From: Parietichytrium sp. I65-24A
Taxonomy: Eukaryota; Sar; Bigyra; Thraustochytrida; Thraustochytriidae
Assembly (NCBI GenBank): GCA_012862575.1
Contig: BLSF01000069.1
Coordinates: 62,001-126,000 of the forward strand
Length of the DNA: 64,000 bases
Direction: 5' to 3'
Shown here one piece after another: positions 1,056 through 42,099 of the stretch. The position numbers and the translations under genes were made by a program. The first letter of the stretch is position 1. Every line of letters starts with the position of its first letter. The notes beneath the pieces are model-generated. The model worked only from the letters and a program-made list of their open reading frames with translations. It made no database searches and was not told where the DNA came from.

Positions 1056-2111
1056 CTACTCCGTATCGCACAGAGTCGAAGGTTTGTCGCTGTGCGAGGT
1101 GTGGCCGTTCGATGGCACGGGCATCACACCCTCTAAGTGCTGGGTTCCATCACTGTGCTCCGGTGCAACCTTCTCGTCCTTAACAATGTAGTTGTTAATA
1201 GGGTAGGCTCTGGTCAGGGTAAGCTGGCAAATGACAATCGCCATCACGTAGGTTTGATGAGGCCACATCACCGGCAGCGATGTCACAGAGTACAAAATCG
1301 TGGAGATAATTGCTATCTTCGTTTTCTTCTTTGCCGTCTGTTCAAACTTGTCGAGGACAGCTTTCAAACGGGAGTTCTTATCTTTCGATCTTGTCGCAAT
1401 GCTATCCAGGAACTCTTTTGTGGACTTGAGCGCTGCCTTGTTTATGAAAGCCATCAGAATCATTAGGACTGCAGTCGCCAGATTTCGGCCGACTACAACA
1501 TATCTCATCACCGAAACAGTCGGGTCTACACATTTGGACATGCATCCGATAATTACGGCTGTCAACGACGCGCACACATAGATGGCAAGCGCAATGTAGT
1601 ACCTCTTCGTGAGATATGATTTCAATTGACTTTTCTTCTCCTCGGACATTCTCGTCGAGCGCAGAAACATCCTGAAGTTTCGAATTTCAAACAGTGCATT
1701 CGTCACCAAACCAACGATCCCAGTTCCAACATACGCCACTGTTATAAGCGGATCCACGCCGATTTGCGAATACTGATACCCAAATAACTTGATTGCAGTC
1801 AATGTGAGAGCAGATGGGCAGACGATGACAACACCTACCAAAATGACTCGAAATGGCTGGTGGTCCCTCCATGACAGCACTTTTCCGGATTTCAGCGCTC
1901 TCTGCTTCGCTTTTTGGTATAGCGGGATCTGCAATCGGAGCGCCAAAAAATGCCTATAAGAAATGAGCAACGCGCCAAGAAATCCTAAGCCCCAGATTGT
2001 TCGCTCTGCAATTTCATTGCCGTAGCAAGCGTACCCATCGTAACTGATAAAATCTGATTTACCTGTTCGAAACCCTGTGCAAATCACCTCGTTCTCGAGC
2101 TGACACTCCAT
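1056..2111 (-). CDS. Seven-TM membrane protein, array copy A (intronless)
   Basis: Predicted 351-residue membrane protein of no family I recognise. The first in-frame ATG is at 2111; the frame stays open to 2150 but only through a TTG. Hydrophobic segments can be read in order: after the acidic N-terminal motif KSDFISYDGYAC, then around RVILVGVVIVCPS, PLITVAYVGTGIVGLV, YIALAIYVCASLTAV, RNLATAVLMILMAF, IAIISTILYSVTSLPV and YVMAIVICQLTL. Basic stretches follow segments 1 and 5 and motif FEIRNFRMFLRS follows segment 3, which puts the N-terminus outside. It shares with the other four copies the motifs SQIGVD, FEIRNF, a TKRY-type motif, a QTYV block and INNYI. It is the only copy without the intron: the junction reads straight through at SVMRYVVVGRN. 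Function unknown; a receptor-like role is only an inference from topology. Confidence 0.8.
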   Translation of the reverse strand: MECQLENEVICTGFRTGKSDFISYDGYACYGNEIAERTIWGLGFLGALLISYRHFLALRLQIPLYQKAKQRALKSGKVLSWRDHQPFRVILVGVVIVCPSALTLTAIKLFGYQYSQIGVDPLITVAYVGTGIVGLVTNALFEIRNFRMFLRSTRMSEEKKSQLKSYLTKRYYIALAIYVCASLTAVIIGCMSKCVDPTVSVMRYVVVGRNLATAVLMILMAFINKAALKSTKEFLDSIATRSKDKNSRLKAVLDKFEQTAKKKTKIAIISTILYSVTSLPVMWPHQTYVMAIVICQLTLTRAYPINNYIVKDEKVAPEHSDGTQHLEGVMPVPSNGHTSHSDKPSTLCDTE

Positions 2112-3535
2112 TTCCACCTTCCTTTGCGTATCCTCTCTTCCAGCACCCAATCTATCAAGTGCAACAGCTTTTGACCTCCGGCCCTGCCGTCGCCCGGCCG
2201 GCTCGCCCTTCTCTCGCTTCAGCTATTGCGCTGCCTTCAACAATCGCCTGCCGGTGCGCTCTACAGTCTCGCCGTTTGCAGGCGCCACGCGGACAAGCTT
2301 CGCCGACGAACCTCAACCCACGTTTTATTCCAGCGGTCTTCGACTATGCAACTCTGCGAACAAGAGTTTGACGAACTTTGAGGAATTCGTAGCTTTGGCC
2401 GGCATCGTTGAACCAGTGTCACAGTCGCGAACTCCTCGAACGGATAAATTCTGAACCCCTGCCCCCCCGCCACCAAGAACTATAAGGCGGTGTTTACTTC
2501 TGCATTCGATCTAGAGAAGGCGCTCGCTGCTGCTTGTCTTGCACAAACTGCTACAGTTGAGGTGTTGGTTCAATTTGCGACTCACGCGAACGTGACATTC
2601 GAAAACAACTCAAACTTCTGTGCTATTTCACGAGTAGCCTATGAGTTGTGAACTCTGAGTTCTAACTAGGCTAGATTCTAAAACTGACTGTCGTTACGAA
2701 ACTCGCAAGTCACAACTCGTGCTCTCAAACGCCATTTGGAATATTTGGAATTGAATTTTTTGTGAAAGAGCCGTTTGAACTTAAAGCAACTTGAACTTGA
2801 ACTTGAAGTTTCCCGGGCCGAATTACCATGTGAAGGGTAAGGTATGGTAGTGTCTTCGAGTAGAGTAGAGCGTAGCATCTTATTCTTTGTTCATGCGCCA
2901 TGTGATTTTTACACTCTTCCTTCCGCTTTGAGTCATGCTTGCGCATGTGTATTCTCCACGTTTTGACTGATTCGATTAGTCTGCAGGAGATTTCTGGAGC
3001 CAAGGAACACTTCGGAGGAAAGGCATGCAATTGAAAAGGAGGAAGATTTCATGAACAGTGGCATCCTTATTTGCTCGCCACACCCCACAGGTTAATTTGA
3101 TTGGTCGTATGAAAGTGTCGCTGCACTTGTGTCTGTCTCTTTTAAGATCCGGACTTCCTCAGGCCAGGACTGCCTTAACAGTGAAAACATCTCCACTAAC
3201 TACAACTTGAATTCGAGTAGATCCCTGCTTTTGCAGAAAGAGATGCAAGCGACAGGTTCTGGAGAGCATATGGTGATTTGGCGAGCGCAAATGAGTACCT
3301 GTCGGGTTTCCTGCCCGTTGTATGCGTCCGACGGCGGTAATCAATGGTGGGAGGAACATCCTCAAACTCCAAAGAAATTAAAATATTTTTTCAAACGACG
3401 ACTGATTATGGTTCTGACCTCTTACGAGTGGGTATGTCGCGAACTTGCATACCTAGGCTAGATACTTGGCGAGTCTCCATCCCCCTTGAAGACATGCAGA
3501 TTAGAAGCAGGTTGAAGAAGATACTGAGTCTCAGT
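2112..3535. other. Intergenic stretch between array copies A and B
   Basis: About 1.4 kb separate the start of copy A from the stop of copy B. Short open frames on both strands show no recognisable domain and no similarity to the array proteins. It should hold the promoter of copy A and the 3' flank of copy B, but I see no defined motif. Confidence 0.5.
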
Positions 3536-4666
3536 TCATGCGCTGGAGGAATTTGGGTCAGATGAGACAGCTGAGGACATCACTGTGACACTGTTCACGC
3601 TATTTGCTCCTGTAGTTGTGTCAGGAGTGACCTTCTCGTCGTTCAAATAGTTGTTAATGCAGTGCCTCTTTCCGAATAGGACACTTGAAAGCACAAAAAT
3701 GGTGACGTAGGTTTGGTACGGCCAGAGAGGAGGAATTGAGAGCAATGTATATAAAACAGGAGAGATGTACGCAATACGCTTTTTTGCATTCGCAGACTGT
3801 TCCAGTACGTCGAGCACCTTTTGGGTCTTCGCCGTCTCTGCTGATTTGTTCCCTCCTGACGAAAGCGCCTGAAGTGTCTCCTTTGTGGATTTCATCACGG
3901 CAACATTAATACTCGCGAAACTCAGCAAGAATATTACCAGGGAGATATTGCGAGCGATGATTACGTAACCCCTTTGTTTGGATCATCGAGAATTTCATTT
4001 GTCAGATTCCCACTGCACAAGCGTTGAATCCGCACATGTAGAACCCAGCACAGCACAAACTTACATTGGAGAGTCCTCAGGGGCAAAGTCCCGGTAATGT
4101 GTTCCGAGGGTCGTAGCACAAAGAGAAGCCACAGAATAAATTCCAAGGCTCAATCGGTATCGCGCCGTAACAAATCTTGCAAGCTCCTCAGATTTATCAC
4201 TTGACATGCGTGTTGTTCGCAATAAAAGCCTGAAATTACGAATCTCAAAGACCGAATTTGCCGCAAAACCTGTCACGCCGGTCAAGAAGTACAAGACGGA
4301 GATAAACGGATCGATGCCAATTTGAAAGTGGTTCTTGGACCCAATCACTTTCAGAAAAGACATGATGATCGAGGCAGGACACAGCGTAGCAAGACCAATT
4401 GCAATCACCTGAAATGGGGAATGCTGATACCACCGCAGGTCCTTGCCCTTCTTCTTCGCTTTCTGCTTCGCTCGCTTGTAGATTGGAAGCTGACATTTGA
4501 GCGCCTTCAGATGCTTGATTGTGAGCAAGATGCCTCCGATCAAACAGATGCTCCACAGCGAGCGGTGCACGTACTCGTTGTCTTTGCAATACCCCTCTTT
4601 GTCGAAGTTGATGTAATCTGTTCGACTCCAGCACGTGATCGTCTCGTTCACGCTCGAGCCCTCCAT
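3536..4666 (-). CDS. Seven-TM membrane protein, array copy B (two exons)
   Basis: Predicted 345 residues. Exon 1 is 4666-4065 and exon 2 is 3971-3536, with a 93-bp GT-AG intron (4064-3972) splitting an ATG codon after its second base. Splicing restores SPM-GYVIIARN, matching the continuous reading of copy A. The ATG at 4666 (MEGSSVNETI) is used because the upstream extension starts only at a TTG. The protein has seven hydrophobic segments, a very basic first loop (KRAKQKAKKKGKDLRWYQH), motif FEIRNFRLLLRTTRM after segment 3, and WPYQTYV and INNYL near the end. The tail is Ser/Thr/Asn-rich and polar. N-terminal Asn-x-Thr (NET) could be glycosylated if the N-terminus is outside. No known family was recognised. 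Confidence 0.82.
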
Positions 4667-6774
4667 CCTCGTCCCGCTCCCCGCGAGCGCCGTTCTTTTT
4701 TGCAACCGCTCTTGCGCGTCGTCCAAGGCCAGGAAACCTGTTTTACTTGCTCGCAGGACGTGATGTTTCCAGTCTGTAAAACAGCTGTGATATTACTTGG
4801 CGAAGAGGCAATGTAAGATTCGAAAGAGCACTTGCTCTTGTCTACTTCTAGCGTTTCATGAGATTCTTGATGCACTGGGCAAAATCACCAATCGTCTGAT
4901 CCAGGTTGAAATGTTCCTTTTTGCACCTTTTGCTCGCATTTCTAATTTCTCCGAGATAGGTCCAAATCCTCCAGCTCTCCGAGTGGTGCGGCCACTAGGG
5001 AACATTTACATCCGTCTACTTGGGTGATTTTAAGTCGGACTCAACGACTTTATTTTCCGCAAGGACGATTTGCTAGCTGGAAAGCTAAGCAGCGGCGCTT
5101 GCGACTCCGTCTTTCCGAGTTCCAGGAACTAGACAGTCGCAATCTTGTTGGCCGTTTCGTTAGAGAATCGTCTCTAACGCGCTTCAAGAGAACCTCGTGT
5201 GAACAGAGTTCATCAGCTCAACGTATGACTTCTGCTACCGTACTATAGAGCATTTGGCAAGAAATGTTGTTGTTGTGAGCGAGAGTGTTGTGCTTCGACT
5301 GCTTTGAAGTGTGCTGTCGGCCAATTGCAAATGAAAGCTCTGCCAAAAGAGACCCTCTTAATTGCAATCTGCCAAGCCTGTCGCATCTCGGCGTCTCAAT
5401 TCCAGGCGATAGGCGTTAGGCGTCAGGCGATTCCAGGAGCTGTGCAAAAGGAGACACTCCAGTACGTGGGCGCGGCACTTAAGGGCAGGTCAAGGTTGGA
5501 CGGGGGGGTATCACACAACAGCACACCCAAATTTGTGAGTGACGGGCCGAAATCTTTGATAACGGGGTGACTAATATAGACTATGCAATTTCGTACGTTC
5601 AAGTTCACATGTCCGGTAACTGTCTTTTCGAGTCGGACTAGGAAAGGCCACGATGTAGAATCCAGAACAGAATTTCGAGTTTTACTGTGAATTACTTTCT
5701 AACTGTAAGCCAACAATCGGAGTCAGGAATAGTCAGGAAGTGAAAGTTTGGCTGAAAGCCGTTGAAACAGCACGCTTGAAATCTGCCTTCCTATTGAGAC
5801 GTTGCAAGCTGCTCAAGCCAGGTGACCATGAAGGAGCCTCTTTGTGTACATACGGTGCGAAACTTTATTCGCCCAGCACGAGCAGAAACGTGGGTAGCTC
5901 CCAAGCATCAAGAGATGGTGCACTTTGCGGCGATCAAACACAAAAGACCCGTTCCGATATCCGAACGATCAAATCAAAAGGAGCAATATTTAGAATATTT
6001 TTCAAGAGTATCGGTACCCTACCCGAATGCCGAAGAAGGGTGTAATGGTGCTGGTGCTGGTGCTGATGGCATCACGTGGCCTCACACTACGCGTGTTGTA
6101 GTCAAAGAGCCTCCAGTACTATCCTGGACATGATACTCTCCAACGAGCTAAGCTTTTGCCAACCTCTCTTTCATGAAAATAGCGACTCGATTCATTGAAA
6201 TCACAAAGCTTTCTTTAGACTTGAAATCACTTTGTTTGGGTAAATCATACACGACTGCAGCATGCATACGAACCTAGCAATCGTATGCTCCGGTATGTTT
6301 TCTTACTGTGGTACAAAAGTAGGCGGCCTTCTGAAGGTCGTTGATTTTGTTACGTTGAACCGCGAAATCCAAGATCTGCAAGTTGAGTGGCGTTCATAAC
6401 TTCTTCAATTTTTGAGTTCGGTCACTCACTGACAGTGAATGTCATCAGGACACAAGTATCGATCCTTGGTGGTCTTGTTCATAGCGAAAGAGAAAAGACC
6501 TATTTGAGAAGTTTGTTGAACGTTTGGAAAATAAAAAGAGTTGATATTTTGATATTTTGCTTCCCGAAACTCCGCAGAGGAGAAGAACGCTTTGACTCGG
6601 CAAAGGATAACCTAATAGATGTGAGCTTGGTCCATGATGGCTTTGAAAACTAACATGCACTGACTCACTGTCAGTGAAACAAAAAGTGCAAAACATCCTA
6701 CCCAGTACCAGTAGTTTGTTCTTCGCTCTGAAAACCCCCCTGAGTTTCTGGCGCGATCTTGAAAGAAAAGCAAT
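4667..6774. other. Intergenic stretch between array copies B and C
   Basis: About 2.1 kb with no gene I can support. Near 6426-6438 and 6665-6677 lie two 13-bp near-palindromes that are exact reverse complements of each other (tcactgacagtga and tcactgtcagtga), bracketing about 250 bp just beyond the stop of copy C. Open frames such as 5740-6133 have no domain-like content. Confidence 0.5.
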
Positions 6775-7918
6775 TTAATTGGCCTCGCTACTGGAAACCA
6801 CAGATGATGCAGCGCTAGCTTCAGTGACATGCGTTTGAGTCTCTGGAGACACCTTGTCGTCCATTTGAATGTAGTTGTTTACTGCGTGATTCTTCGTCAA
6901 TGTCACCTGAATGAATGCAAGAGCAATGCCGTAGGTCTGATATGGCAAAAGCTGTGGTATAGAAAGTATCGTGTATAAAACGCACGAACTGAGAGCCATC
7001 TTTCTCTTTCTTGCGGTGGTTCTCTCTAGAAAGTCCAGGACTCGCTGGGTTTTGCTCGACTCGGCAGACTTCTTTCCCGTCTGTGAAAGAGCCTCTAGAA
7101 TCTCACGAGTCGATTCTAGAACGACTTGGTTGATTTTTGCAAAGCTTAGCAGAAAGAGAACCATTGAAATGTTCCTTGAGATGATGACATAGCGCCTACG
7201 GAATAGTGAGGGTGATTTCGCCATAGTTAAGTTTCGCGCACGCGCCAACACAGAACAACACATTTTCTTGTAAGAACCCCTTTTACGAGAGCAAGGGCAG
7301 TCACAATAATGGCTTAGAAACTTACATTCTTGAATCTTTCGGAACTTCGTCCTTGGAGGCAACCCCGACAGCAGCGCAAGCAAGTACGGAGGCCGTGTAA
7401 AATGCCAGAGCAAGACAGTATCTTGTCGTCAAATAAGTTTGTAACCTCTTGCTCTTTTCTTTCTCCAGGCGAGTGGACCTCAGTAACATTTTAAAGTTTC
7501 GCAACTCGAATAATGTGTTGGCCGCGAACCCAGCCACACCACTCAAAACGAAGCAAATCGATGGCAGCACCTGGACACCGACCTGCGAGTTCTCCGATCC
7601 GATTAGCTTCAAAAAAGCGAGAACGATTACCTCTGGGCACAGCGTGACAAATCCCAGGAATATAATCTGCAGCGGCGGGAACCGATACCACTTGAGGTCA
7701 TGCCCCTTCTTCTTCGCTTTCTGCTGGGCTCTTTTGAAGATTGGGATCTGTAGCTTGAGGGCCACCACGTGGCGATACGTCAACAGCAAGCCTCCGAGCA
7801 GCACGAGCGACCAAGCGATCCGGAAAGGTACTTCGTGGTCTGGGCAACTGGTCCCGCCGTAGTTGACGAAGTCGGTTTTGTTATGCCACCAATTCGAATC
7901 GCAAGACCCCGAGCTCAT
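6775..7918 (-). CDS. Seven-TM membrane protein, array copy C (two exons)
   Basis: Predicted 337 residues. Exon 1 is 7918-7326 and exon 2 is 7195-6775, with a 130-bp intron at the same codon and phase as in copies B, D and E; the join reads SRM-RYVIISRN. The ATG at 7918 (MSSGSCDSNWW) aligns with the other starts, although the frame stays open upstream to 8122. Features are the N-terminal KTDFVNYGG motif with two cysteines nearby, seven hydrophobic segments, basic loop 1 (KRAQQKAKKKGHDLKWYR), FELRNFKMLLRSTR after segment 3, a charged segment 5-6 loop ending in TTARKRKM, and LPYQTYG and VNNYI near the end. It differs from the consensus with GVQVLP in place of GVDPL before segment 3. Function unknown. 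Confidence 0.82.
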
Positions 7919-10314
7919 TGTTCCTGCCAAAGCCCTGCCAGAGCCCTGCCTTGCAAAGCCTTCTGCGGCCCTTCGCGCGGTTTGTGCACCAGCGACAGCG
8001 CGACAAGATGTGGCCAACGCGACGTTTCGATTCTGCCAGCCCCTATCAAGCAAAAGGCAGTTCCAGGTTTTCCTCCACGAATGTGTATGTTGTATGCATG
8101 TGCGAAGGCGTAAGCGACACAAGGGGGCTGATTGCGAAAAAGCGTCTCCGCTTTGATTTTGTTCAACAGATTTTTGAAAGCTCGCGGTTCACCGGCCACA
8201 TTCAACCCAGTTGCGCCATATGGCAAACTCAATAACAAATCGGAGCGTTTCTGAGGGCTTTCCTACTAGGTTGGTGCCTTCTCAGGCGTTTTCCAAAACC
8301 TTTTGGACAGAAATTATTTCTCCCTTTTCTTGAGACGGGAAACTCCAACTTTCCTCCTTCGGCAAGGAGTGCACATTCACTTTGAGAGGAAGAAGATGAT
8401 GAAAAAGTGCGGGTAGCGAGTACTGCTGCTCAGTGTGGTTTTGTCAGTGCCGTACTAGTACTGTAAATCTCCCCCTCACAGTATTGACAGAAATTTACTA
8501 TTCTTTTTTTCTTTCATGAATGTCGACTTTCACAACAACTTTTACACGCTACGAGACTACATCATTTTGATTGCCCAATGACACCAATGACCCACTGCGA
8601 GCAAACCCATTACGTTACCGCTAAATGCCACTTACTATCAATCAACTCACACTTGCTCAATCCCCTCTTCCCTCACATCAGAGTGTTTTTACGAAAGTCC
8701 ACGATGGCGTTTTGGCGGTCATCCTCCACGTCGCTGAAGCACTAGGTTTAGACGAAAACGTCTCATCGCCGCTCATGGTAACCCTATGCAACCCTATCGA
8801 GTCCATGAATGCGTTCCCTGTGCTTGATGAAACCTTCACCTAAGCAATGTCTGTTTGTACAGTAACTGCACGTCGCATACCGCGACAACAAATCCGCGAA
8901 GGCAGACAGGGTGTCTCGCCTTGAATTTAGGCGTTCACCCGCATCGGAGCATGAGCAAGGTAGGTTTGACCCTTGATAAATACGGTGTAATTGACTTTTT
9001 GCACTGTTTCCCGTGCTGTCCTGCATCTGTACAGTACTAGGCCCCACTCCTCCAATCTCCCATCTTCGTAATCCACAGTCGGTGAGCACAGATGATCACC
9101 ATTTCTTGCCTCTCAAAAAGCAAAGAGAAAGGAAAAAGAAACAAGCAAACGAAAACAAAACAAAACAAAACAAACGCAGACTACGCAGATATACGCAGAT
9201 TGCAAATGGGTCTCCCTGAGAGCCGTTGCGATTCAGGAGTCCTAGTCCGTAGTTCTAGTAGTTCTAGTCGCAACTCAACTCCGAACGGCTATGTAGCACT
9301 GGTGGTGCAAATAGCGTTCATGTGCCTTCAGGTTCTGATGATGGTGATGGTTGCTGTTATGGGATGGATGTGTTCTGGGTCAAGGGCACGCTAAGAACTT
9401 TCCAAGAAGGACCCACTATCACACTTTCGAAGACCTTCTTGGGAGAGCAGTCTCGGAAATGTTCGGAATTTGGAAGATTTGAGAGGGTTGGGGAACGGAG
9501 GGTTGGAGGGGTTGGAAGAGGGCACGTTGTCGTTCTTTCCACTCTGTCAGAACACGATCGGAAGAGAGAAAGAGAATGGGGGACTTGACGTGCTGTTAGC
9601 TGTGGTAGTGGCGGTCTGGACGCTGGGGACAAATGGAAAGAAAACTTCAAGCAAGCCAGCAAACGCCGCAGGCAGCCAAGCTGCAGGGCTCTTGAGAGTG
9701 CAGTCGTGGGATACAGCTGAACACAAAGTTGGCCACTTGTGAATGTCATTGGAGAGTACCGTTACTTTTGGCATTGACTTCGAGATGATAATCTTATTTA
9801 TTTATTTATAGGTTAATTTTAATTTCTTTGTTTATTTTTGTTATATTTGATTGCTACGAGCATCGGCGACTCGCCAGGAGAACTGCGAATACCCTTCATA
9901 TTCCCACTCACTGTTCAACATTTCTTTATTCCCACTCATATAACTAAAAACCAAGTGATGAAGCAAATGTCGACATCTCTGTATCCCGTGCAAAAAAAAG
10001 GAAAAAGAAGACGAGGAGGAAGAAGAAATAAATAAAACGCTTCCTGTCTGTTGACACTTGGAAACTCGTCTTCTGAGATGCCGAAAATTTAGCTTGGCAA
10101 AATTCTGAATGAGATCTTTGTCGAGGAATTGCCTCAAATACCATAAGGTCTTCATACTCAGATCAGATCACTAAACTATGAATCTTTTGCTGGGACACTG
10201 TAAATCTTAGATGGTGTGAACTCTCCGCGCTTCAATGCATTCTACACTCGATAAGAATGGTCACTCGGAAGCGGCGTTTTTCAGATAGTGCAAACCGTGG
10301 TCGAGAAAGAACGA
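7919..10314. other. Intergenic stretch between array copies C and D
   Basis: About 2.4 kb. The first 200 bp upstream of copy C are open in its frame and may be 5' leader or an N-terminal extension. The rest holds A-rich tracts (9115-9175, 9990-10035) and an AT-rich patch at 9785-9850. No open frame resembles a protein I recognise. Confidence 0.5.
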
Positions 10315-11465
10315 TCACGAAGCGGATTCAGGGACTGTGCTTGCCACTGTGCCAGTCTTCGAGGGAGCATTCGCAATTGAATTGGAGGGACCTGATGGCT
10401 CGACCTGGGTTGATTTCTCCTCGTGTTGAATGTAGTTGTTAATTGGGTGAGACCGCGTCAAGAGCACATTCACAATGATGAAACCCACCACGTATGTCTG
10501 GTAAGGGTACATGAACGGAAACGAACCCAGTGAATAAAGCACCACTCCGGCGGACGCGACTTTTCGCTTCTCTTTAGTGGCGCCCTCGAGAAATTCCAAG
10601 ATCTGCTTCGCCTTTGCAGACCCCGCAGACCCCGCAGACGCCGCCCCTTCCGACGAGAGGCTCTTCACGAGCTCCTTTGTCAGCTTCAAGACGTTCCGAT
10701 TGATTTGCAACAAGAAAAAGAGAAAGATCACAGTCGTCACATTTCGCGCCACAACAAAGTATATCCTGCACGTATTTTAACACACTCGTTAGACGACTCC
10801 CTCTTCGAGGCTTGCAACATCACAGCGCTTTTTGCAGCTCTTAGGAGAACTTACATCGGGGACGTTTTTGGGTCTTCGCAACGGAATCTGTGACCTATGA
10901 AAGTGGAGACCACAGCTGTGACGGCGAAGATACTCACAGTCACCGCGTAACGTCTGGTCATGTACAATTCGATATTGCCGCTCTTCTCCACAGAGACGTT
11001 CATTGAGTTCATGAGCAGTTTGAAGTTTTGAATCTCCGAATATGCATTTGAGACATACCCAGCGACCCCGATGAGAATATAGCAAAGTGATGCAACATAA
11101 TCAACTCCAATCTGCGAGTATCCGCTCTGCGTAATTTTCAAGGTCGATAATACTAACGAAGCGGGGCAGATCGTCGCGGATCCAAACGCAACGATCTGCA
11201 ATGGCAAATGCTGATACCACTTCAGGGTCGACCCCCTTTTCCTGGCCTTTTCTTGAGCGCGTCGAAAAATCGGGATCTGAATCCTCCACGCCTTCACATG
11301 GCGATAAATTATCAAAAAGCTTCCTATAAATCCCAGGCTCCATAAAATTGTGTGCGCGATCTCGCTATCGTTGCAAGCGAACCCATCGAAGCTTATAAAG
11401 TCTGTTTTTCCCGACCAGAATTTCGGGCATGTCGGCACCGGCGCGTTCTCGCATTGCGCTCCCAT
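10315..11465 (-). CDS. Seven-TM membrane protein, array copy D (two exons)
   Basis: Predicted 353 residues. Exon 1 is 11465-10855 and exon 2 is 10765-10315, with an 89-bp intron at the shared position; the join reads SPM-IYFVVARN. The start ATG at 11465 gives MGAQCENAPVPTC. Key motifs are GKTDFISFDGFAC, a basic loop after segment 1 (RRAQEKARKRGSTLKWYQH), ICPASLVLS in segment 2, SQIGVD before segment 3, EIQNFKLLMNS (the FE of the other copies is SE here), TRRYA, YPYQTYV and INNYI. The loop between segments 5 and 6 carries an Ala/Gly/Ser-rich insertion (EGAASAGSAGSAKAK) absent from the other copies. The tail is polar and Ser-rich. Unrecognised family. Confidence 0.82.
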
Positions 11466-12861
11466 TCGTCCAGTCTCGAGGCCCTTTCTTCTTCGGCAAA
11501 GTGGCTTGTCAGGCCCTTTCCGCGCTGCGCTGCACCGTCGATCAGGTTGCTACACTACGCTGCGCAGTCTGGCAAGTGAACAGCGTTTCATGTCTGCGTG
11601 CAAACTCAGGTGTGCCTTTGCGGACAGCGTTTTGCGGTGAGAAGATTGTGTATACTACCACGACTGTTGGCGATTTTGTTCTTTAACCGAGAAGCTCCAA
11701 CGATGCTCGGTATCGCCAGCTAACTCGTGAACATGTGAAAAGTGAGTCTAGCGGCCAGTCGTCTGCCAATGAAGACGGCGAAAAGACTGCACGATGATAT
11801 GAAATACTAGCCGTTGGGTTTGAAGCATCCGAGTCCTACTACAACTACTAAGCTCAAAACTCAATTTGGCGGACAGCAACTGCACTCGCAATTCAACATT
11901 TTCTCATTCTTTTATCCCTACTTGCTGTTCAACAGTTTCCTGCCAATCTTACATATACTCGCAATCAAAAAGGCTCCAAATTCAACATTTTACTTTTTAA
12001 GCTTGAGAGTTGAAGCCTCCAACTGGCTCGACTAGATCTTGGAACAAAAGGTGCTCCTATGCAGATAAAGTCCATGCCAACCTGCCCGTGGTTGAATTGA
12101 CTTCAGATGAGTTCCATGTCAACCCAACCTTTTTGCCCATCTGACGCGTTGACAGTTGTCATTGCATTGGATGTTCGTTGGAGTTTAATCACTCAAAAAA
12201 TGTGCTCGGAGACGACACAACAATCACAATGATTAAGTAATTGTAGTTTCCGTAGATGTACAGTGAGACAGAAGTGGGTGGTTGATTGGGTGATTGACAG
12301 ATTGTGAGTGGGCAAGCCTCTGAGCTGCTACAGTATGTGCCTTATGTCGTAAGGCCATGATCGTCTCCGACTCCTGGTGTAGCAAATGTATCCTTTGTTC
12401 TGCTCATGGGCTCGACGGATTACTGCCAGCCTCAAGTACTAACAGGGAGTCCTCAGACCATGCCGAAAAGAGTTGCTGACAGCGAATCAAGGTGAATTTG
12501 CTGCTCTTACGTTCATGTGTTCTAAAAGAGTACAAGGCCGCTCAAAAGGTGTGCCGAAGCATTGCGACAGCACAAGTGGAGATCTCTTCGCTACGTCGTA
12601 CTTTTTTTTCGCAATTGGTTCAGGCACTGGCATTCCGACTGCAGCAAAACTTTTTTGAACGCTTTTTCTTTCTTTCCCAACATCGAGAAACTTCGGAGTC
12701 GGCTCCCTACTCTTCCCCTTCCTTTGCGTCCAAAGCTCTGCGAAGTAATCCAATCGAATAAATTGAACCGTTGCTTTGAATGCCGCTGAGCAGACTCTCC
12801 TGCACTTGAAATAGTATCACAGTCGTGAAACCAACGAATAACGAGCTGTAGCGTGATGTTC
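11466..12861. other. Intergenic stretch between array copies D and E
   Basis: About 1.4 kb containing only short open frames without recognisable content. It presumably carries the promoter of copy D. No tandem repeat or structured element was seen. Confidence 0.5.
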
Positions 12862-14026
12862 TTAAGAAAGCGCGCTTTCCTGCAGCTTGTCCTCGTCAGC
12901 ACTGATGGAGCTGCCTCCGGTGTAGGTTTGTGGTACTGCACTTGTCGGTACTGTCTGTTGCTTTGAGTTGCTCAAGTCACTCGAAGGTCTTACGCGATTG
13001 GCGTTCTCGGAGTGAAGGTAGTTGTTGATGGCATGGCTCTTCGACAGCGTTGCCTGTGACAGAAAGAACGTGATTGCATAAGTCTGATAAGGCCAGAGCT
13101 GTGGGAGCGAAATGAGGAGATACAGAACCGCAGTAACAGACGCAAGCCTTCGCTTCTTCTTTGATATCCCCTCCAAAAAGTCCAGCACCTGCTGAGCTTT
13201 CGCGCTATCCGCAGACTTCTTGTCGTTGCTTGCGCTCATTGTGGCAAGAACCTGCTTTGCCGATAAGAACACCATATGATTGATAGTCGCCATCCCGACG
13301 AAATACGAGAAGGTGGAGAAATTCCGTGCAATTATGACGAACCGCCTATGCAGGATCAAGCCATGGGACGTGAATTAGCTCTGGTGAAAAGTCAAGGACA
13401 AAAGTTTGCTGGGCAAGAAAAACTTACATGGGAGATTTGTATGGCTGAATTCCAGTCACAAAGTTCCCAGAGATTGTCGCAACCAACGTGACGATGGAGT
13501 ACATGGTGACAGCAAGTGCATATCTTTTTGAGAGATATCGAGACAACGAGCTGGATCGCTCCGAAGACACATTCAAAGTTCTCAGCATGAGTTGAAAGTT
13601 ACGAATCTCGAACAATGTGTTGGCAAGTAAACCCGCAATGCCAGTGAACACGAACAAGACCGATGGGAGCAAGTGCACTCCAATTTGAGAGTGCTCGCTT
13701 CCAGTGATCTTCAAAATCGAGAGTACTATCGACGCGGGACAAAGGCTCACGAGACCAATTGCGATCACCTGGAGAGGTGGGTGCTGATACCAAGCAAGAG
13801 ACTTTGCTTTTCGCCTCGCTTTGTCCTTCGCGCGAATATAAATAGGAAGCTGAAGCTGAAGCGCCTTGAAATGTCTATAGGTAAGAAGCAAGCCTCCAGC
13901 AAGCACAAATGCCCAGGCAATTCTGTGAGTTATGTCGTTGTCAGGGCACTCGAACCCGTCAAAGTTGAGAAAGTCCGTCTTGCCTGTTGCTGGCCAGGCG
14001 CACGTGCATGGGGCATCGCAATCCAT
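12862..14026 (-). CDS. Seven-TM membrane protein, array copy E (two exons)
   Basis: Predicted 360 residues. Exon 1 is 14026-13428 and exon 2 is 13345-12862, with an 82-bp intron at the shared position; the join reads SPM-RFVIIARN. The ATG at 14026 (MDCDAPCTCAW) is used because the open frame upstream begins only at a GTG. The N-terminus is Cys-rich (four Cys in the first 20 residues), followed by GKTDFLNFDGFEC. The seven hydrophobic segments match the other copies. Loop 1 is basic (RAKDKARRKAKSLAWYQH), FEIRNFQLMLRTLN follows segment 3, SKRYA precedes segment 4, and WPYQTYA and INNYL lie near the end. The C-terminal tail of about 60 residues is polar and rich in Ser, Asp and Gln. Outermost member of the array; function unknown. 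Confidence 0.82.
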
Positions 14027-26437: not shown

Positions 26438-26971
26438 CTAGCTAGGAAAAAACGAAGGAAGATCAGAGGGAGGAAAGAGCATGAAAGAGCGGCGGCGAAA
26501 AATGGTGGGAGGTGAGAGTTTGCATAACTGACTTTTACGAGAACATTATTTTTCATTGATGGGATTCGGCCATTATTCCGAGAGAGCTAGGTTGATTTGA
26601 TTGATTTGAGCGAGAGCTAAGTCGGCAATTACCCCGGAGGGTATAGAAGCTTGTGAAGACCGTCTGGAGTTGAGTTGTCTTGGCTGGCAAAGCCAACTGA
26701 GACAGGGCAAGGCAAGGCAGAACAAACCCTCATCTCCGTCGATAGCGGACGATATATTCGTCGAGATTAACAAGTGGCCTCGGGTTCGGTGCTGTTTGGA
26801 ATCGAGGAAGGAGGGCAGCGCGCGAGAGAGAGAGGAGAAAGCGAGTTCGCCGTCCAAGTGGGGCTGACTTTGTGGTCGGACAAGTTGTGTATTCCTGGTG
26901 TGTGGAAAGTAACCTGTTTGCTGCTACTCTAAAATCAGAGCTTGAAGGGCGCAAGAGCGGGGGCTGGCAGA

Positions 26972-29900
26972 ATGCTGGGGGACGACGGTGCACAAGAGAA
27001 GAAGGGCCTGGAACATGACCCTCAAGAGGGCAGCAGTGCAAATGGAGCCACTGGGACGACCTCATTGCACCAGGAAGGGTTTGCTGAGCATCAGACCAAC
27101 GACAACGACGTGAGTTTTGCCGCTGAGCACCAGTTGCAAAGTACAGACTCCATGTCCTCCGAAGGAGTGGAGATTACTGAGGAGGAGCGGGAGCGGTTCG
27201 TTGAACTCATCGCAGGCAGGGTAAAGAGCCACATGCAGAGCGAGGGTAAGACTCAGGTGGAAGGAGAGGAACTCACTTTCACACTTAGCAAGAGCGATGT
27301 CAACATCCTCACGCGGGCGTACGGTCCCAACCTGGAGAACGTACCTGAGGTCGTGCTCTCCAACATCGAAGAGTCACGCGACGTGATGTCTGCTCTGGGC
27401 ATGGCGAAGGTTACACTCAGAACACGAAAAGAGTTCTGGCCCGTCAATGTTGGATTCAGAAACCTCTCTTACACGGTGAAGGTGTCGCCTGCTTCCATGG
27501 GCATCAGCACGGTAGGCACGCAGGCCAAGCAAGTATTCTCGCCACTCATGTCCCTCGCCAAAGGCTGCAAGTCTCTGCGCGAGGAAGTGGAAGTCCTCCA
27601 CAACGTTTCAGGCGTCTTTCGGGCTGGCGTGCCCACTCTGATCCTCGGGCCTCCTGGCTGTGGTGTGACAACACTGTTCAAGGCTCTTGGTGCGCGCGTA
27701 AAAACATCCAAACTGCACAAATTGAGCGGCGAGACTCTCTACTCCGGCTTCACCAAGAAAGAGCTCAACGTGCGGAAGCTTTCCAACTACGTCGAACAGA
27801 TTGACAGCCATTTCCCCAACCTCACGGTGCAAGAAACTGTTGACTTTGCGTTCGAGTGTCTTCATGACCTGTCTGCTGAAGAGCAGCTGTACGACCACCC
27901 AGATGCCACAAGTGAGGAGATCGCCAAGTCGAAAGAGGGTTTCAGAAACCTGCCGACCTTTTTGATTGATAACTTGGGCCTCTCAAACTGCAAAAACACT
28001 GTTGTCGGTAACGAAATGGTGCGCGGAGTTTCCGGTGGAGAGAGAAGGAGAGCAACCGTGGCTGAAATGCTCACCGCTCGCCGGCCTTTTACGATGTTTG
28101 ACCAAATTTCGACTGGTCTCGACAGCGCAGCCACCTTTGACATTGTCAAGAACGTGTGTGAGGTAGCAAGAATGCTTTCGCTTACTTCTGTGTTCGCTTT
28201 GCTTCAGCCTCCGCCAGAAGTATACGCGCTCTTTGATGAAATCATGATCTTGGCGAAAGGGCGCGTGGTGTACCATGGCTCGAGGGACAATGTGCTCCCG
28301 TACTTTGAGTCGATCGGATTCAAGTGCCCGGACGACAAAGACATCGCAGATTTCATTCAAGAGGTGACAACTGACATGCGAGGCAGATTTGCGACCCGGC
28401 CAGATGCTCCATCCGACGAGGCAGGGTTGGCCCGTGCTTGGGAGGCTTCTCCATTCGCAGAATTTAAGCAGAGTGAGGTTGAAAAGTGGTGCAATCCCGA
28501 CAACAAGGTAGACAGCCCCCACCGCAAACAGTACTTCAGTAAAGGCTCCCCAATCTTCGCCAACTCCGTTTTCACGGAACTGGGTCTCATGATCAAGCGA
28601 CAGCGAAAACTTGTGTATCGGGACCGGGCTTTCGTTCGGGCACGCATTGGGCAGTCTATTGTGATGGGGACTATCATCGGCACCGTTTTCCTTTTCCTCG
28701 ATGAGAGCATAGCCGACAACTATACTCCGGTAACCCAGCGCTACGGTTTGGTCTTCACCACTCTCATGCAATCTGCGCTTACTGGAATGGCGGGTATTCC
28801 AGTGGTCATTGCCTCACGGCCGGTTTATTACAAGCAGGATGAGTCGCATTTTTTTAGGACCCTCAATTATATCATCGCGGACACCATTGTGACTCTTCCA
28901 ATCTCTCTCATCGAATGTATCTTCATGGGTAGTCTCATCTTCTGGTTGTCCGCAGTGGTGCCGAGCAGCCATGATGATGTGGTTCCACAGTACTTTGCCT
29001 TCATCGCCATTCTCTTCACGTTGAACGTTTCGTTTGGATCATTTCTCCGCTCGGTCGCGACGGTCTCCAAGAGCCCCTCGGTTGCACAGGTTGTTGCTGG
29101 TGTTGCAATCGCCTTTTGTGTGTTGTTCAGTGGCTTCATCATCACTCCAAACAACATCCCGCCATGGTTCATTTGGATTTACTGGATCACTCCAGTATCA
29201 TGGTCTCTGCGTGCGATGATGATCTACGTTTTCTCCTCATGGGAAGGGGAAGGTGAGGAATTCGCGCTCACTCTGTTTGAGTTTCCAACCAATAAGGTGT
29301 ACATCTGGTCTGCTGTCTTGCTCTTGGTTGCATACTTCTTGTTGAATATAATGCTGTCTTTGATTGGCTACAAATTCTTCCGTATCGAAAAGGCCTCTCC
29401 GCAGAGAAATCTGGACGAGGACAAGGCCGAGCAGGAAGCCACCGAGACAATGGGAAAAGCGGTTTCCAAGGCTGATGCTGACTCCGCAGGTGGCATTGAA
29501 TCCAGAAAGGAGAATTCCGAGCTTGTGCTTGACATGCGCTCCCAGTCCGTGAGCCGATTGGAGGGCCAAGTCCGCACAGCAAACATCGTGTTTAGGGATC
29601 TGTGGTACTCGGTGCCAAACCCTTCCAACAAAAAGGAGACGATCGATTTGCTGAAAGGCATCAGTGGATATGCTCAGGCTGGAACGATGACGGCACTCAT
29701 GGGAAGCTCTGGCGCCGGAAAAACCACACTGATGTAAGTTTTTGTTTCCCGAGTTGGGCATTGCTTCATTGCTTTTTCTCGCAAGTTCTCGGGCCAGCAC
29801 TCTAATTCGATTTCTAATTTTTTTACTTGTGAACACAGGGATGTAATCGCTGGTCGTAAAACCGCGGGCACAATCAAGGGAGACATTCTTGTTAACGGCA

Positions 29901-31657
29901 GACCAAAGAATGCCAAGTCTTTCTCCAGGATCATCGGATACGTGGAACAGATGGATATCCACTCGCCGCACCAAAAGGTTCGAGAAGCTGTGATCTTTAG
30001 CGCCAGGCTGCGACAAGGTGATGAAGTGTCTGATGAGGACAAGATGAACTTTGTGAATGCTGTCATCTCTGCTCTCGAGCTCGATAACATCTCCGAGTTT
30101 GAAATTGGCAATCGCGTGGAAGGCGGTCTGTCTGTGGAACAGGCCAAGCGGGTTACCATCGCGGTGGAAATGGCCGCTAACCCGTCTATTCTGTTCGCGG
30201 ACGAGCCAACCAGTGGTCTTGACGCTCGGGCCGCAGCTATTGTTATGCGAGGTATCAAGAGAGTGGCACTGTCCGGCCGCACGGTCGTTTGCACGATTCA
30301 TCAGCCGAGCCGCGACATCTTCCAGAACTTTGATCGCCTGCTTCTCCTGAAGCGCGGGGGCGAAGTGGTCTACTTTGGGGACCTGGGTAATGGTTCGGAG
30401 AAGCTGCTCAACTACTTATTCGGCCTCACTGGCAAACAGATGCCAAGCCAGAGGTACAACCCTGCCACGTTCATGCTGGAAGTGATCGGGGCTGGAACCC
30501 GCAGCAACATCACAGACGATTTCGCAAAAGCTTACAAGGAGAGCGAAGTGAAGGCCATTGCAGACAAGGAGATAGAGTCGCTTGTCGAGACGGACAAGGC
30601 TGACCGCGAGGAGATCCACTTTGATCATGAATTCGCATCCTCGTTCTGTACTCAGCAGCGCGAACTTCTCGTCAAGTGGATGCGCACCTATTGGCGTTCG
30701 CCAAGCTACAACTTTACGCGTCTTCTCGTCAACATTATCATGGCATTCTTATTTGGTCTTGCTTTTCTTCAAGTCGATGTGCAAAGCACAACCGATGTGC
30801 AGTCGCTGCTGGGTGTTGTCTTCATGAGCACTATCTTTATGGGAATCATCAACCTCAACTCAACCCTACCGATGATGTTTGGCGAGCGTGGGCCGTACTA
30901 CAGGGAGCGGGCCTGCAACATGTATGGAGTGTAAGTTTTTCGTGGCTGAATTTCGAATGGTGATGTTGACTGTGAATGAGAGGACAACTTGCCTGACTCA
31001 TGTTTTACTATTTGTCTTCTACTCTTTAGTACTCCGTACATCGTCGCCCACACCCTCACGGAGATCCCTTACCTTATCGCGTACTCTTTGCTGTTCCAGA
31101 CGATCTTTTACCTGTTGGTGGGGCTCACAATGAATGCAGAGGCTTTCTTCCTCTACTGGTTCATCTTCTTTCTCCACATGACCGTAATGACCTTTTTGGG
31201 TCAGCTTCTCTCTGTTGCGACGCCTAACCAGCAGGTGTCTGGCATCCTGGCTGGTGTTCTAGCAGGTCTCTCGAGCATCTTTGCTGGCTTCACCATCGCG
31301 GTTTACGATATTACCCTGTTCTGGCAGTTCATGACCTACATCAATCCAATGCGGTACTCTTGGGCTGCGCAAGTTCAGGTACAGCTCTCTTGCGACTGCA
31401 CCGTGGACTCCGACTCGACCTCCGACCCGTACACTTGCAATGGCGGCCAGGATTGTGAAAGTGTGTGTGACATGTCCTCCTTGGGCTGTCAGATGTTGGA
31501 CGGTGTGCCATACAATGCCAAGCAGTATTCTCTGCAGGTGTGGGACTTTAATTACGACATGACCGCGGCGTACATTGGCGCGCTCGTGGGCTTTGTGGTC
31601 GGCTTTCGCATCCTCACCATCCTGTCGCTGCGGTTCTTATCCTTCCAGAAACGCTAA
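26972..31657 (+). CDS. PDR-type full ABCG transporter, copy 1
   Basis: Full-size pleiotropic-drug-resistance ABC transporter, 1493 residues, arranged NBD1-TMD1-NBD2-TMD2. Such pumps export lipids and hydrophobic compounds across the plasma membrane. Exons are 26972-29733, 29839-30930 and 31030-31657, with introns of 105 and 99 bp. The ATG at 26972 (MLGDDGAQ) matches copy 3; upstream codons in frame are not ATG. NBD1 has Walker A GPPGCGVTT with Val for the usual Lys, an intact signature VSGGERRR, and Walker B TMFDQISTGLDSA with Gln for the catalytic Glu. NBD2 is canonical in Walker A (GSSGAGKTT), Walker B (ILFADEPTSGLDA) and H-loop (TIHQPS), with the PDR-style signature LSVEQAKR. A Cys-rich external loop (CDCTV...CNGG...DCESVCDM...LGCQ) precedes the last helix. 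Intron 1 falls in NBD2 right after Walker A. Confidence 0.95.
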
Positions 31658-33823
31658 ATGTAACAATTCCAACTTTTTACCCTTTGACTCCATTTCACTC
31701 GGCCTGACGACGTCCCTTTTTTTTTGCCGTGCGTGTTAGCTCTCCTCTCTGCTCCCTGCGCCCTCGCGGTGAAAGACGTCCCGTCCCACCAATCTCGCCA
31801 ACAGCCAGCAAATGTCTGCTATACCCAGATCGAAGAGATCAAGAGATCGAAGAGATCGTTGATCTGAATTTCGAAACGGAGCAACGCTCGGCAGCATGTA
31901 CGCATGCTCTCATCTTACCCTTCACCTACTTTGTCTGCCATCCGGCGCTGTCCGTGGGGCCTATTTCCGATGGCGAGAACCAACATCGAGGTGCTCGGCG
32001 CTTGGTGCTCGATTCGGTTTTGGGTACTAGTACTGAGTACATCTCGATCCGCACTTTGCTTTTTCTTGCAGAGAGCTCTGCTCAAGTACAGATTCTCTGA
32101 ACTCTCTGCACGCTTTCGCGGTTAATATGACAGCCCACTTGATGCAGCTAGTAGACTTGCCAACGTTTCGCAATCTTAACAGCTTCATAAAAACCGATTG
32201 ATTGATTGACTTAATTGACTCACTCGTTAATTTTGTTAAACTCATTGATTTCAAAACTATCTCTTTACCAACCTCAATCTTCAGCCCGGAAAAATCCCAG
32301 TGCAGGACTAGCATCAACTAAGACTAACTGTAACAAATGGGACTCTACTCTCTCTACAGCCTCGTAGTAAACGTGAGTGGAGGTACTGAGTACCATAGCA
32401 AAGGGGTACTACTAGCTAGATCTACTCTTTAGTTAGTCGATAAAGCTAGCTCCTAAAGGTACCACTGGTACCACACTCCTACCAACACAGTCAGCAAGCC
32501 TTTGGCTGAATATCTGTCTGACGCAGTCTTGGAACAAGTCCTATGTACTGCTACATCAGCCCTAGTGCACACCTCCGTTGCAGCGCCTAAATCACGTGGA
32601 GACCAAGTTCGAAAGTCAAGAGAGTGAAAAGAAGAGATTTGTTTTTGTTCTTCGACAGAAGAGTGAAAGTTAGCTATTATTTAAATAAAAGTGTCGTGAA
32701 GAACGGAGAGAGATCGATCATCGCACCTTTTCGTGTTGGCCATGCTATTTGCTATTTGCTATTTGCTATTTGCTATTTGCTATTTGCTATTTGCTATTGG
32801 CTATTTGCTATTTGCTATTTGCTATTTGCTAATTAGCACGTACAAGCAGCGCGTGCTGTTCCTGGTTTTTAGGTGCTCAGCCTTGTGCTCGGCTCCATTT
32901 CTCTTCAAACTGTGGCACGTGAACTGACATTGAAGATCGGCGTCAGATGTATTTATTCTAAGACAGGGGATACAGCTGCTCCATGCTGCTCCCCTGTAAA
33001 TTTGTAAAATTTAATTAAAAACTCATGATAATAAAACTATTATATCAGGAAGGGAGGACCTATGGCAACCTATGGCATCCCTATCGAGAACCTACTCTAA
33101 ACCATAATCCACTGGTAGCGCACACCTTAGCTCTGATCCGGACAGTACGGTATCGCTATATAGTGTAAATGTAAGCGAGATAGAAGTGCGGTACGCCTCT
33201 AGCTAGATAGAGTAGAGTCATAGTGTGTGGCTTTGACGAGAATGAAGAGTACCTTCTCTCTATATAGTAGCTACTACGCTATTTAGTAGTAGCAACACTA
33301 CCCGTCCACTAATAATGGCTAGTGGCTAGCACACTGAGAGACAGAGAGAATGAATGAAGTGAGAGGAAACAAACAAATGAGCCACGTGAGACAACACAAA
33401 AAAGTGAACAAGAACACACGAAGAAAAGGAAATTATAGACAGACAAAGAGCGAATGAAGGAATATATGAATGAATGAATATGAGTGTGAATATGAATATG
33501 AATGAATTGAAAAAGCGACCAAGCCAAGCCAAGCCACGCAATCAAACAAGCAAAATTAAAACAAGCAACCAACCAACCAACCAAACAATCCTTGCCAATG
33601 TCAAAATCAGCTTTCCCAACAACAACATCCCAGCAGAGCCCGGCGCGAAAGCAGCGGAGCGCTATAGCCGAAGACACCGCAGACACAGCAGACACCGCAG
33701 ACACCTAACCCACTCAACGCGTCGCGTAAACCAGTCCGTTTCCAGTCAGTTGCCTGGTAAGTCGGCACTTGAGGTGCGAGGTGCGGGACGTGCTGCGGCC
33801 GTGTGGAATACTCGCGGGAAGAC
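31658..33823. other. Intergenic stretch between transporters 1 and 2
   Basis: About 2.2 kb of non-coding sequence. It holds the gctattt heptamer array (separate entry), an AT-rich patch at 33000-33045, and a long gaatga/tatgaa-rich stretch at 33340-33500 followed by aacc repeats near 33565-33590. The last stretch should include the leader of transporter 2. No further gene was recognised. Confidence 0.55.
32743..32830. repeat. Heptamer tandem array (gctattt)
   Basis: About twelve copies of gctattt run in near-perfect register, with one copy varied to ggctatt. Such an array is prone to slippage and makes hydrophobic pseudo-coding frames (repeats of LLFAICY), which should not be taken as a protein. 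Confidence 0.93.
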
Positions 33824-36800
33824 ATGCTGCGCGATGCAAGAACGGAACAGGAGAGCTGCTCTACTGGATCGGCGCCGTGTGGCGAAGATGGCGGGGATGA
33901 CAGCGGGATTAGTCTGGTGAGGAATGTGGGGGAACGGGACGACATGGAATCGAGCCGTGAAGATAGGGACACATTCGCCAGAGTCATTGCAGGCAGGGTC
34001 GCGCAGCACCTTGAAAGCGGAGGCAATCCGCAGCTCAGTGACGAGCAGATAGACTACGCAGTGAGTGAGCAGGACGTCAGGGTGCTTAAAAGCGCATTTG
34101 GACCAAGCCTTGGAGATGTGCCAGACACGGTCCTCTCCAGCATCGAAAACACACACGATGTCAAAACGGCCATTGGAATGGCAAAAGTCACGCTCAAGAC
34201 ACGCAAAGAGTTTTGGCCAGTCGACGTAGCTTTCCAGGGCCTCTCCTTCGCAGCCAAGGTGACCCCCGCTTCCAGAGGCATTCGTACCGTGGGCATGCAG
34301 ATAAGGAACCTTCTCTCCCCGCTTGCCAAGCTCGCAAACGGGTGCAAAGCGGACCATGAGGAGGTGGGCGTTCTTGCAAACGTATCCGGGGTATTTCGGG
34401 CGGGAGTACCCACGCTGGTGCTTGGGCCGCCAGGCTGTGGCGTGACAACTTTGTTCAGGGCCCTTGGCGGGCGTCTGAAAAGCAGCAAAACTTGCGAGCT
34501 CAGTGGCGAGGTCCTCTACTCCGGCTTCTCCGGCAAAGAGCTCAATGTCCAAAAACTCTCTAATCACGTGGAGCAGATCGATAACCACCATCCCGTTCTC
34601 ACCGTCCAGGAGACTGTTGATTTTGCATTTGAGTGCCTTCACGACGTGGCAGTGGCAGAAGATCAATTTTCTCACCCTGACGCCTCTGCAGAGGAGATCG
34701 AACTGTCCAAAGAGGGCTTCCGAAACGTTGCGAGCTTTGAAATCGACAATCTCGGTCTCTCAAATTGCCGAAACACGATCGTCGGAAATGAAATGCTTCG
34801 GGGGGTGTCTGGTGGAGAACGAAGGAGGACAACTATCGCTGAGATGCTCACTGCTCGCAGGCCATTCACTATGTTTGATCAGATCTCGACTGGGCTGGAC
34901 AGTGCTGCGACCTTTGACATAGTAAAAAACATTTGTGAGGTGGCCCGCGTGCTTTCGCTCACATCCGTCATAGCTCTGCTGCAACCTCCTCCAGAAGTGT
35001 ACAACTTATTTGATGAGGTCCTGATCCTCGCCAAAGGCCGTGTTGTTTTCCATGGCGCCCGCGACAACGTGCTTTCATACTTTGAGTCTATCGGCTTTGC
35101 GTGTCCAGAAGACAAGGATATCGCAGACTTCATTCAGGAAGTGACCACGGACATGCGATCAAAGTTTGCAACGCGTCCGGGCACGCCAACCAGCCAAGCA
35201 GAAATGGCGCTCGCATGGGAGCAATCGCCGTTCTCAGAGCCGATGAAGGGTCAAGTCAGGGAGTGGTTTGATGGCAAAAAGAAGGTGGATAGTCCGCTTC
35301 GGCAACAGCTCTTCAGCAGAGGCTCGCCAACCTACGCAAACTCCATCTGCAACGAGCTTGGCCATCTTATCAGGCGCCAAGCCAAATTCGCCTTTCGAGA
35401 CAAGGACTTCTTTGTTGCTCGCATCAGCGAAGCAATAGTCTTGGGTGTAGTCATTGGCACCGTTTTCTTCCAACTCGAGCCGAACATTAGTGGCAATTTC
35501 GCAGAGGTCAACCAGCGCTATGGTTTGCTGTTCACAGTTCTCATGCAAGCTGCGCTGACCGGAATGGCTACAATTCCAATACATATAGATGCTCGTTCAG
35601 TCTTCTACAAGCACAAAGAGGCGCACTTCTTTCGCACAATGAATTACATCCTCGCAAACGTAATCGTGACTTTTCCAATCGTCGTTTTGGAGTGCACGCT
35701 CATGGGCTCCTTGATATTTTGGCTCTCCGACGTGGTTCCGCATGACTCGCCGGACGTTGTGTCGAGATACTTTCTCTTTATCGCCATCATCACCCTCACC
35801 AGCGTGTCATTTGGTTCTTTCTTTCATGCTGTCTCCTCCATTTCAAGGAATCCCTCGGAAGCGCAGACTCTCGGTGGCGTACTCATGGCACTCTGCGTAG
35901 TGTTCAGTGGCTTTATCATTACTCCGGATAACATACCGCCGTGGTTCATTTGGATTTACTACTGCACCCCTCTTTCATGGGCTTTTAGCGGCTTGGCAAT
36001 CACAGTCTTCTCTGCGTGGGAAGAGGATATCAAACTATTCGCGCTCGATCTGTTTCAGTTTCCTTCAGACAATGCCTACATCTATGGTACACTCCTGGTC
36101 TCGACCGCGTACTTGATCTTCTATGTGTCTATGACCTGGGCTGGCTACAGCTTCTTTCGCATCCAAAAGATCATTCCTCAACCGAGCGAAGACGAGTCCG
36201 CCGTGATGGAGGAGAGCACGACGTCTGAAGCATTGAAAGGCGAACACGCAGGAATACAAACCGCGCCAAGCGGCTTGCCAATAGCTGCTGATGTTGAGTC
36301 GAGGGGACCTCTCAGGAAGTACGAGACCAGTTTTGAGCTTGCGAGCTCATTCACCAAACTCGCGAGGAAGGCACGTACAGCAAATATCGTCTTCAAAGAT
36401 CTTTGGTACTCAGTGCCGAACCCGTCCAATAAAAAAGAGACAATTGACCTCCTTAAGGGTGTGAGCGGATATGCTTTGGCGGGAACGATGACTGCTCTGA
36501 TGGGAAGCTCTGGCGCTGGTAAAACTACTTTGATGTAAGTTTTTGTCTCAGTATTTATTAGTGTTCGAGTGTGTTTGAGACATGAAAAGCCTCCAAACAA
36601 TAGGTGTCGCACGACTGATGTTCGGATTGCTGACAAGTTTGCTTACTTCTTTCTCCCTTGGGGTGTTCACAGGGACGTCATTGCTGGCCGCAAAACAGCA
36701 GGCCAGATCAAGGGAGACATTTTTGTCAATGGCACACCAAAAAATGCCAAAACGTTTTCGCGGCTCATTGGATATGTGGAACAAATGGACATCCATTCGC

Positions 36801-41752: not shown

Positions 41753-42099
41753 GGGCTCAAATGAAACTTGTCGCACTCACTGGCAGTACAGCACAGAATA
41801 CATTACGGTCCCAATACTGGCAGCACTGACCCCGAGAACTCGTACCGCAATTGGCACTAAATTTAGTAGCAACTTGCCACGAGTGAGCGAGCGAGTAAAT
41901 TGGCAAGCAAGAAAGAAGGAAGGAAAGGAAATTGGAAATTGGAAATTGGAAAGAAGGAAAGTGTACAAGCAGACACCGAACTGGGACAAGTGTCCTCGCT
42001 GCGAGTACTCAGGCGAGCGAGTACCTTTGGTCCGTGTGCCGCAGTGGAGTGCAGTGGGGTGCAGGGCAGTGCGAGTGTGGGGCGGAGAGACAAGGGACA

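Follow-up and report, generated by a model that had tools for sequence, protein, structure and literature searches.

Architecture of the gene array

The window, a 64,000-nucleotide stretch of Parietichytrium sp. I65-24A (contig BLSF01000069.1, positions 62,001 to 126,000 of the forward strand), carries a tandem array of five genes for membrane proteins with seven predicted transmembrane helices (7TM), named copies A to E by position. A preliminary description, made from the sequence before any search, had read them as minus-strand paralogues of 337–360 residues, lying head to tail with spacers of 1.4–2.4 kb, and gene reading and splicing bear this out (Table 1). As derived from the gene ends, the spacers from A to E measure 1424, 2108, 2396, and 1396 bases. 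Copies B–E share a GT...AG intron in phase 2, 82–130 bases long, that lies inside the Met codon of an S-x-M motif; copy A has none. A sixth copy, also intronless, is located directly before the window at C69:60490-61419 (L007), and a copy on contig C1 (L012/L019) carries an intron at the same place as copies B–E. In the tree, A and L007 are grouped (96/89) and join D with moderate support only (88/84). Since both sit inside the intron-bearing clade, the simplest explanation is that the A/L007 line lost its intron.

Table 1 Genes, exons, and introns of the array, in window positions
Feature	Positions	Strand	Remarks
Copy A, reduced EGF-like tail + 7TM, structure modelled	1056-2111	minus	intronless, 351 residues
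Copy A ectodomain	2025-2111	minus	residues 1-29, Cys 3, 11, 29
Copy B gene	3536-4666	minus	345 residues
Copy B exon 1	4065-4666	minus	
Copy B intron	3972-4064	minus	phase 2, 93 bases
Copy B exon 2	3536-3971	minus	
Copy C gene	6775-7918	minus	337 residues
Copy C exon 1	7326-7918	minus	
Copy C intron	7196-7325	minus	phase 2, 130 bases
Copy C exon 2	6775-7195	minus	
Copy D gene	10315-11465	minus	353 residues
Copy D exon 1	10855-11465	minus	
Copy D intron	10766-10854	minus	phase 2, 89 bases
Copy D exon 2	10315-10765	minus	
Copy E gene	12862-14026	minus	360 residues
Copy E exon 1	13428-14026	minus	
Copy E intron	13346-13427	minus	phase 2, 82 bases
Copy E exon 2	12862-13345	minus	

Family members in the genome

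The genome searched is the organism's own assembly (42.5 Mb, 172 contigs), and the genome-wide family counts are lower bounds. Copy A as a protein query finds at least 27 places, and two distant members find at least 20 and at least 22. Reading of the loci yields 26 genes: 13 close ones (the five window copies, L007, the C1 copy, four on C73, one on C172, and one on C3), nine distant ones (C43, two on C3, C13, C60, C18, C59, C7, and C32), and four divergent ones (C19, C10, C12, and C31). With the ectodomain removed, the alignment between the transmembrane cores of the 13 close and the nine distant members spans 249 columns and reaches a probability of 97.1%; four controls reach at most 0.7% against either group. 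This alignment indicates that the whole 7TM core is homologous between the window type and the EGF-bearing type, and that the genome carries at least 22 family members, the window copies among them. An array of five copies only was rejected, as the genome searches gave further members. Among the divergent genes, the core of C10 aligns with the distant group at 77.5% and that of C19 with the close group at 39%; C12 and C31 reach at most 9.6% and are family candidates by architecture alone.

A search of the genome for the pattern W-T-G-x-S/T-D returned 20 places versus eight in a reversed control; 13 of the 20 were read, of which eight lie in known members and five are chance matches. Relatives were confirmed neither in viral contigs, queried with one distant member, nor in other genome contigs, queried with copy A. 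A second tandem array of the family is present at C73:65358-76275. It holds four members, three with six-cysteine ectodomains and one with a four-cysteine ectodomain, and the C172 copy is 85% identical to one of them. The ratio of nonsynonymous to synonymous substitution rates (dN/dS) was calculated for four close pairs and amounts to 0.46 for C73_a and C172 and to 0.20 for C73_b and C73_a; these usable values concern C73/C172 members, and dS is saturated in the other two pairs.

Topology

Column-averaged hydropathy shows seven peaks on both the KD and the GES scale for 11 close members, and six (KD) or eight (GES) for eight distant members. Counted in single sequences, the five copies give 6–8 peaks versus shuffle means of 4.1–5.8 and maxima of 8–9 (500 composition shuffles each); because shuffles reach 8–9, such counts are weak evidence for seven helices. 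Stronger evidence is given by peaks coinciding across paralogues, by the alternation of loop charges, and by two seven-helix structure models. The frequency of lysine plus arginine per 100 residues, going from the N terminus through the loops to the C-terminal tail, is 5.4, 27.8, 2.3, 20.2, 7.7, 20.0, 0.0, and 7.8 in the 13 close members and 4.3, 29.3, 9.6, 15.1, 4.8, 18.3, 22.2, and 9.1 in the nine distant ones, with the value of 22.2 stemming from a loop of four residues. Herein, helix boundaries were taken from the column-averaged hydropathy, as they were for glycosylation sequons. The seven segments, the external N terminus, and the basic loops after segments 1, 3, and 5 of the preliminary description all agree with these predictions, the orientation by the loop charges of 22 members. 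Without the C-terminal tail, the close group has 12 sequons among 835 outside residues versus eight among 1295 inside ones, and the distant group has 11 among 804 versus five among 832, which amounts to a slight excess on the outside.

The ectodomain and its probable EGF origin

Distant members begin with C...GxGxC...CxC..GWTGRSDxxNxEGxDC, a stretch matched by Pfam EGF models. These models score above cut-off in three of five members in one scan and in one of seven in another, and the four divergent genes stay below cut-off. Across all 26 members, the ectodomain measures 25–81 residues. Exactly six cysteines occur in 18 of the 19 members outside the window clade, the seven-member clade of the window copies, with a CxC motif followed by the last cysteine 16–19 positions on; the exception, C73_c, has four. 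All seven members of the window clade contain 2–4 cysteines within 25–31 residues, so that the six cysteines of an EGF domain are found outside this clade but not in the window copies. The last ectodomain cysteine is invariant in a 19-row alignment (19 of the 26 members). In the window clade it is C29, which is, together with one cysteine in helix 2, the only invariant one.

The motif TDF..(F/Y)DG..C before segment 1, listed earlier as a conserved mark, is indeed conserved. Its meaning changes: because the distant ectodomains are matched by EGF models and the last cysteine is invariant, it is the end of an EGF-like domain that remains complete in most relatives. The window clade carries a reduced form of this domain, and the simplest reading is that it lost cysteines, since members on both sides of the clade in the tree keep six. 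Teneurin-type and Reelin EGF are among the matches of family ectodomains. In a PDB sequence search, the 19-row profile matched nothing but EGF domains belonging to other proteins and, by chance, a single scorpion toxin; the window profile gave four chance capsid matches only.

At the opposite end, five of the nine distant members (L024, L025, L026, L027, and L030) terminate in DEFV, NEYV, SEYV, DSFV, and EDYV. In this ending, which the window copies lack, Phe/Tyr-Val comes after an acidic residue or Ser, and we take the ending to resemble a PDZ ligand or an endoplasmic reticulum export signal.

Conserved residues and family models

In the window clade, segment 2 has an invariant CP and segment 5 an invariant RN and IN; a Pro and Q.Y around segments 6 and 7 and NY after segment 7 are invariant as well. 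Among the motifs quoted previously, CP, RN, and NY hold, and two are looser than stated: SQIGVD reads FQIGID in B and SQVGVQ in C, and FE.RNF reads SEIQNF in D. Invariant charged residues in or near the helices of the window clade include an Arg within helix 5, a Lys following helix 2, and a Glu following helix 3.

No 7TM family scores above the Pfam cut-off for the 26 members among the families listed (25 of 45 in one scan; for the C1 copy, exon 1 was scanned). Sequence-based membership in 7tm_1, 7tm_3, or other 7TM families was therefore rejected, in line with the earlier remark that no known G protein–coupled receptor (GPCR), rhodopsin, or transporter signature is recognizable, as far as GPCRs and 7TM families are concerned. 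One match lies below threshold, 7TM_GPCR_Srh in exon 1 of copy C (E 0.16, 11.4 bits versus a cut-off of 26.3). DUF1673, ETRAMP, and similar weak matches are far below cut-off in one or two members each and were rejected.

Fold models

AlphaFold was run on a window-only alignment of nine rows, and the models were compared with known structures by VIA-align (50 listed rows per model). Seven main helices are present both in the model of copy A (pLDDT 63.3, pTM 0.52) and in that of the trimmed core (pLDDT 68.5, pTM 0.54). GPCRs occupy the top rows and account for 35 and 24 of the best 50 rows listed, respectively, with microbial rhodopsins at 13 and 24 and designed proteins at 2 and 2. The helix number agrees with the GPCR-like topology described at the outset, and the top Z values of 13.8 and 12.9 are not decisive for the fold. 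The models are hence only suggestive of a GPCR-like fold, because mostly helical models reach such Z values without kinship.

Function and alternative explanations

On balance, we lean toward GPCR-like receptors for external cues, with the window genes as a local branch of a family of seven-helix receptors with EGF ectodomains. The receptor or sensor family thought plausible earlier is thus favored, as a family larger than five copies. The proteins would reside in the surface or an endomembrane with a small disulphide-bonded tip outside, and a ligand might bind at this tip or in the helix bundle. Signaling could proceed through heterotrimeric G proteins via the basic cytoplasmic loops, and the tandem copies may differ in the external cues to which they are tuned. 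In the window clade, pair identity is 0.52 in loop 1 and 0.42–0.47 in six of the seven helices; variable parts are the N terminus (0.36), loop 5 (0.35), helix 4 (0.29), and the tail (0.22). Among the long parts, loop 1 and these six helices are thus the better conserved, a pattern that fits tips of varying sequence mounted on a shared transducing core, without proving that arrangement.

Several observations favor other seven-helix proteins, such as transporters, channels, scramblases, or membrane enzymes, whose N terminus would be outside by chance and capped by a small EGF-like tip. Among the Pfam families listed, no GPCR family reached its cut-off. GPCRs of classes A, B, and C have a cysteine pair between helix 3 and extracellular loop 2, and the window clade has no invariant cysteine there; its invariant charged residues would also suit a transporter or an enzyme. 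Loop 1 is long and basic, the models are of middling quality only, and microbial rhodopsin pumps and channels are among the structural matches listed. Besides these rhodopsins, however, the best 50 rows per model contain no transporter or channel, which does not exclude them, and one shared catalytic or ion site is less likely because the 19-row alignment, which spans both subfamilies, lacks an invariant charged residue. The EGF-bearing ectodomain and the tandem expansion would also fit recognition better, and we regard such proteins as rather unlikely.

Adhesion or wall-attachment proteins, in which the EGF-like domain binds matrix or neighboring cells and the helices are an anchor only, are a less probable explanation still. 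They would account for the EGF-like ectodomain outside the window clade and for its Teneurin-type and Reelin matches, but the window clade retains few cysteines in a short ectodomain, and loop 1 and six helices, helix 4 excepted, are better conserved than the N terminus. Diverged photoreceptors or pumps of the microbial rhodopsin type are suggested by the share of such proteins among the best structural rows. These are defined by the retinal lysine of helix 7; the window clade has no invariant Lys in this helix, no rhodopsin family is among the Pfam matches listed, and this identity was rejected as very improbable.

If the proteins are the receptors that we favor, a large sensory family of this protist group escapes automatic annotation, because the 7TM core scores below existing GPCR models. 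They would then also illustrate plainly how a domain-capped receptor family sheds its cap during tandem expansion, and would form an orphan receptor set in a protist where class C GPCRs and G proteins abound. A further, tentative proposal, which is possible but doubtful, is a separate undescribed GPCR class of more than 20 labyrinthulomycete genes, with one EGF-like tip on a 7TM core unrelated in sequence to known classes and with one branch losing most of the tip during tandem multiplication.

Other features of the window and the genome

The window contains a second tandem array, consisting of three plus-strand ABC transporters (26933-31657, 33773-38496, and 41899-46864), which presumably are of the ABCG/PDR type. 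For each gene the scan covered the first long frame, where ABC_tran and ABC2_membrane matches were found.

In mitochondrial COX1 and COX2 (L077 on contig C141), leucine TTR codons are TTG in 40 cases and TTA in none (368 + 250 codons counted), and all 38 Lys, Glu, and Gln codons of the same stretches have A in the third position. Three TTA codons in the COX2 open frame lie upstream of the presumed start, outside the counted stretch. TTA may be a stop codon in the mitochondrial genes; mitochondrial code 23 (Thraustochytrium) fits TTA avoidance in AT-rich mitochondrial genes, which would put the organism, albeit with some doubt, among the labyrinthulomycetes. The GC content of the locus is 30% if masked Ns are included in the length, so that the true value is somewhat higher. 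The TPI-GAPDH fusion, a stramenopile marker, was not seen at the two TPI loci of the genome, and this marker gives no support for a stramenopile.

Comparison with known receptor systems

As folds, the class T bitter-taste receptor TAS2R14 and the class D pheromone receptor Ste2 share 5–10% identity with the family in structurally aligned rows, and neither was matched at the sequence level in the PDB sequence search. To our knowledge, both are without an EGF-derived tip. Animal EGF-TM7 adhesion GPCRs are of the CD97/EMR type. Like them, the family has an EGF-like domain before seven helices and a predicted external N terminus. Adhesion GPCRs contain a GAIN/GPS region before helix 1, for which the family ectodomains, unlike theirs, offer no room; neither GAIN/GPS nor an adhesion 7TM model is among the Pfam matches listed for family members.

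In the same genome, class C 7tm_3 (PF00003) matches occur at 82 places, several clustered on C71, C19, C85, and other contigs, yet none of the 82 overlaps the 26 family loci, and 7tm_3 is absent from the family Pfam matches listed. G-alpha gives 24 matches, 17 of them above cut-off, and at least 11 G-alpha genes are present. The 82 class C and 24 G-alpha matches agree with the enrichment of class C (glutamate-type, 7tm_3) GPCRs, and of GPCRs and G proteins generally, that PMC6050695 reports for thraustochytrids. A separate locus, L003 (C11:358566-359129), has a weak 7tm_1 match (31.1 bits versus a cut-off of 30.5) in a long protein whose cysteine-rich N-terminal part is Frizzled/Smoothened-like by eye.

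An open-access full-text search that combined EGF with 7TM or GPCR and covered thraustochytrids, labyrinthulomycetes, stramenopiles, oomycetes, and protists, with subscription literature outside its scope, returned no title or abstract opening that describes the family. EGF domains are present in some opisthokont class C receptors, according to PMC12716839, a 2025 catalogue of choanoflagellate GPCRs. In the sections consulted, its orphan protist GPCR families RSF, GPRch1-3, and Hi-GOLD have no extra domain or a GOLD domain, and none is given a single EGF-like tip. Like these, the present family is a 7TM family outside the classical GPCR classes; unlike them, as they are described, it bears a single EGF-like tip.
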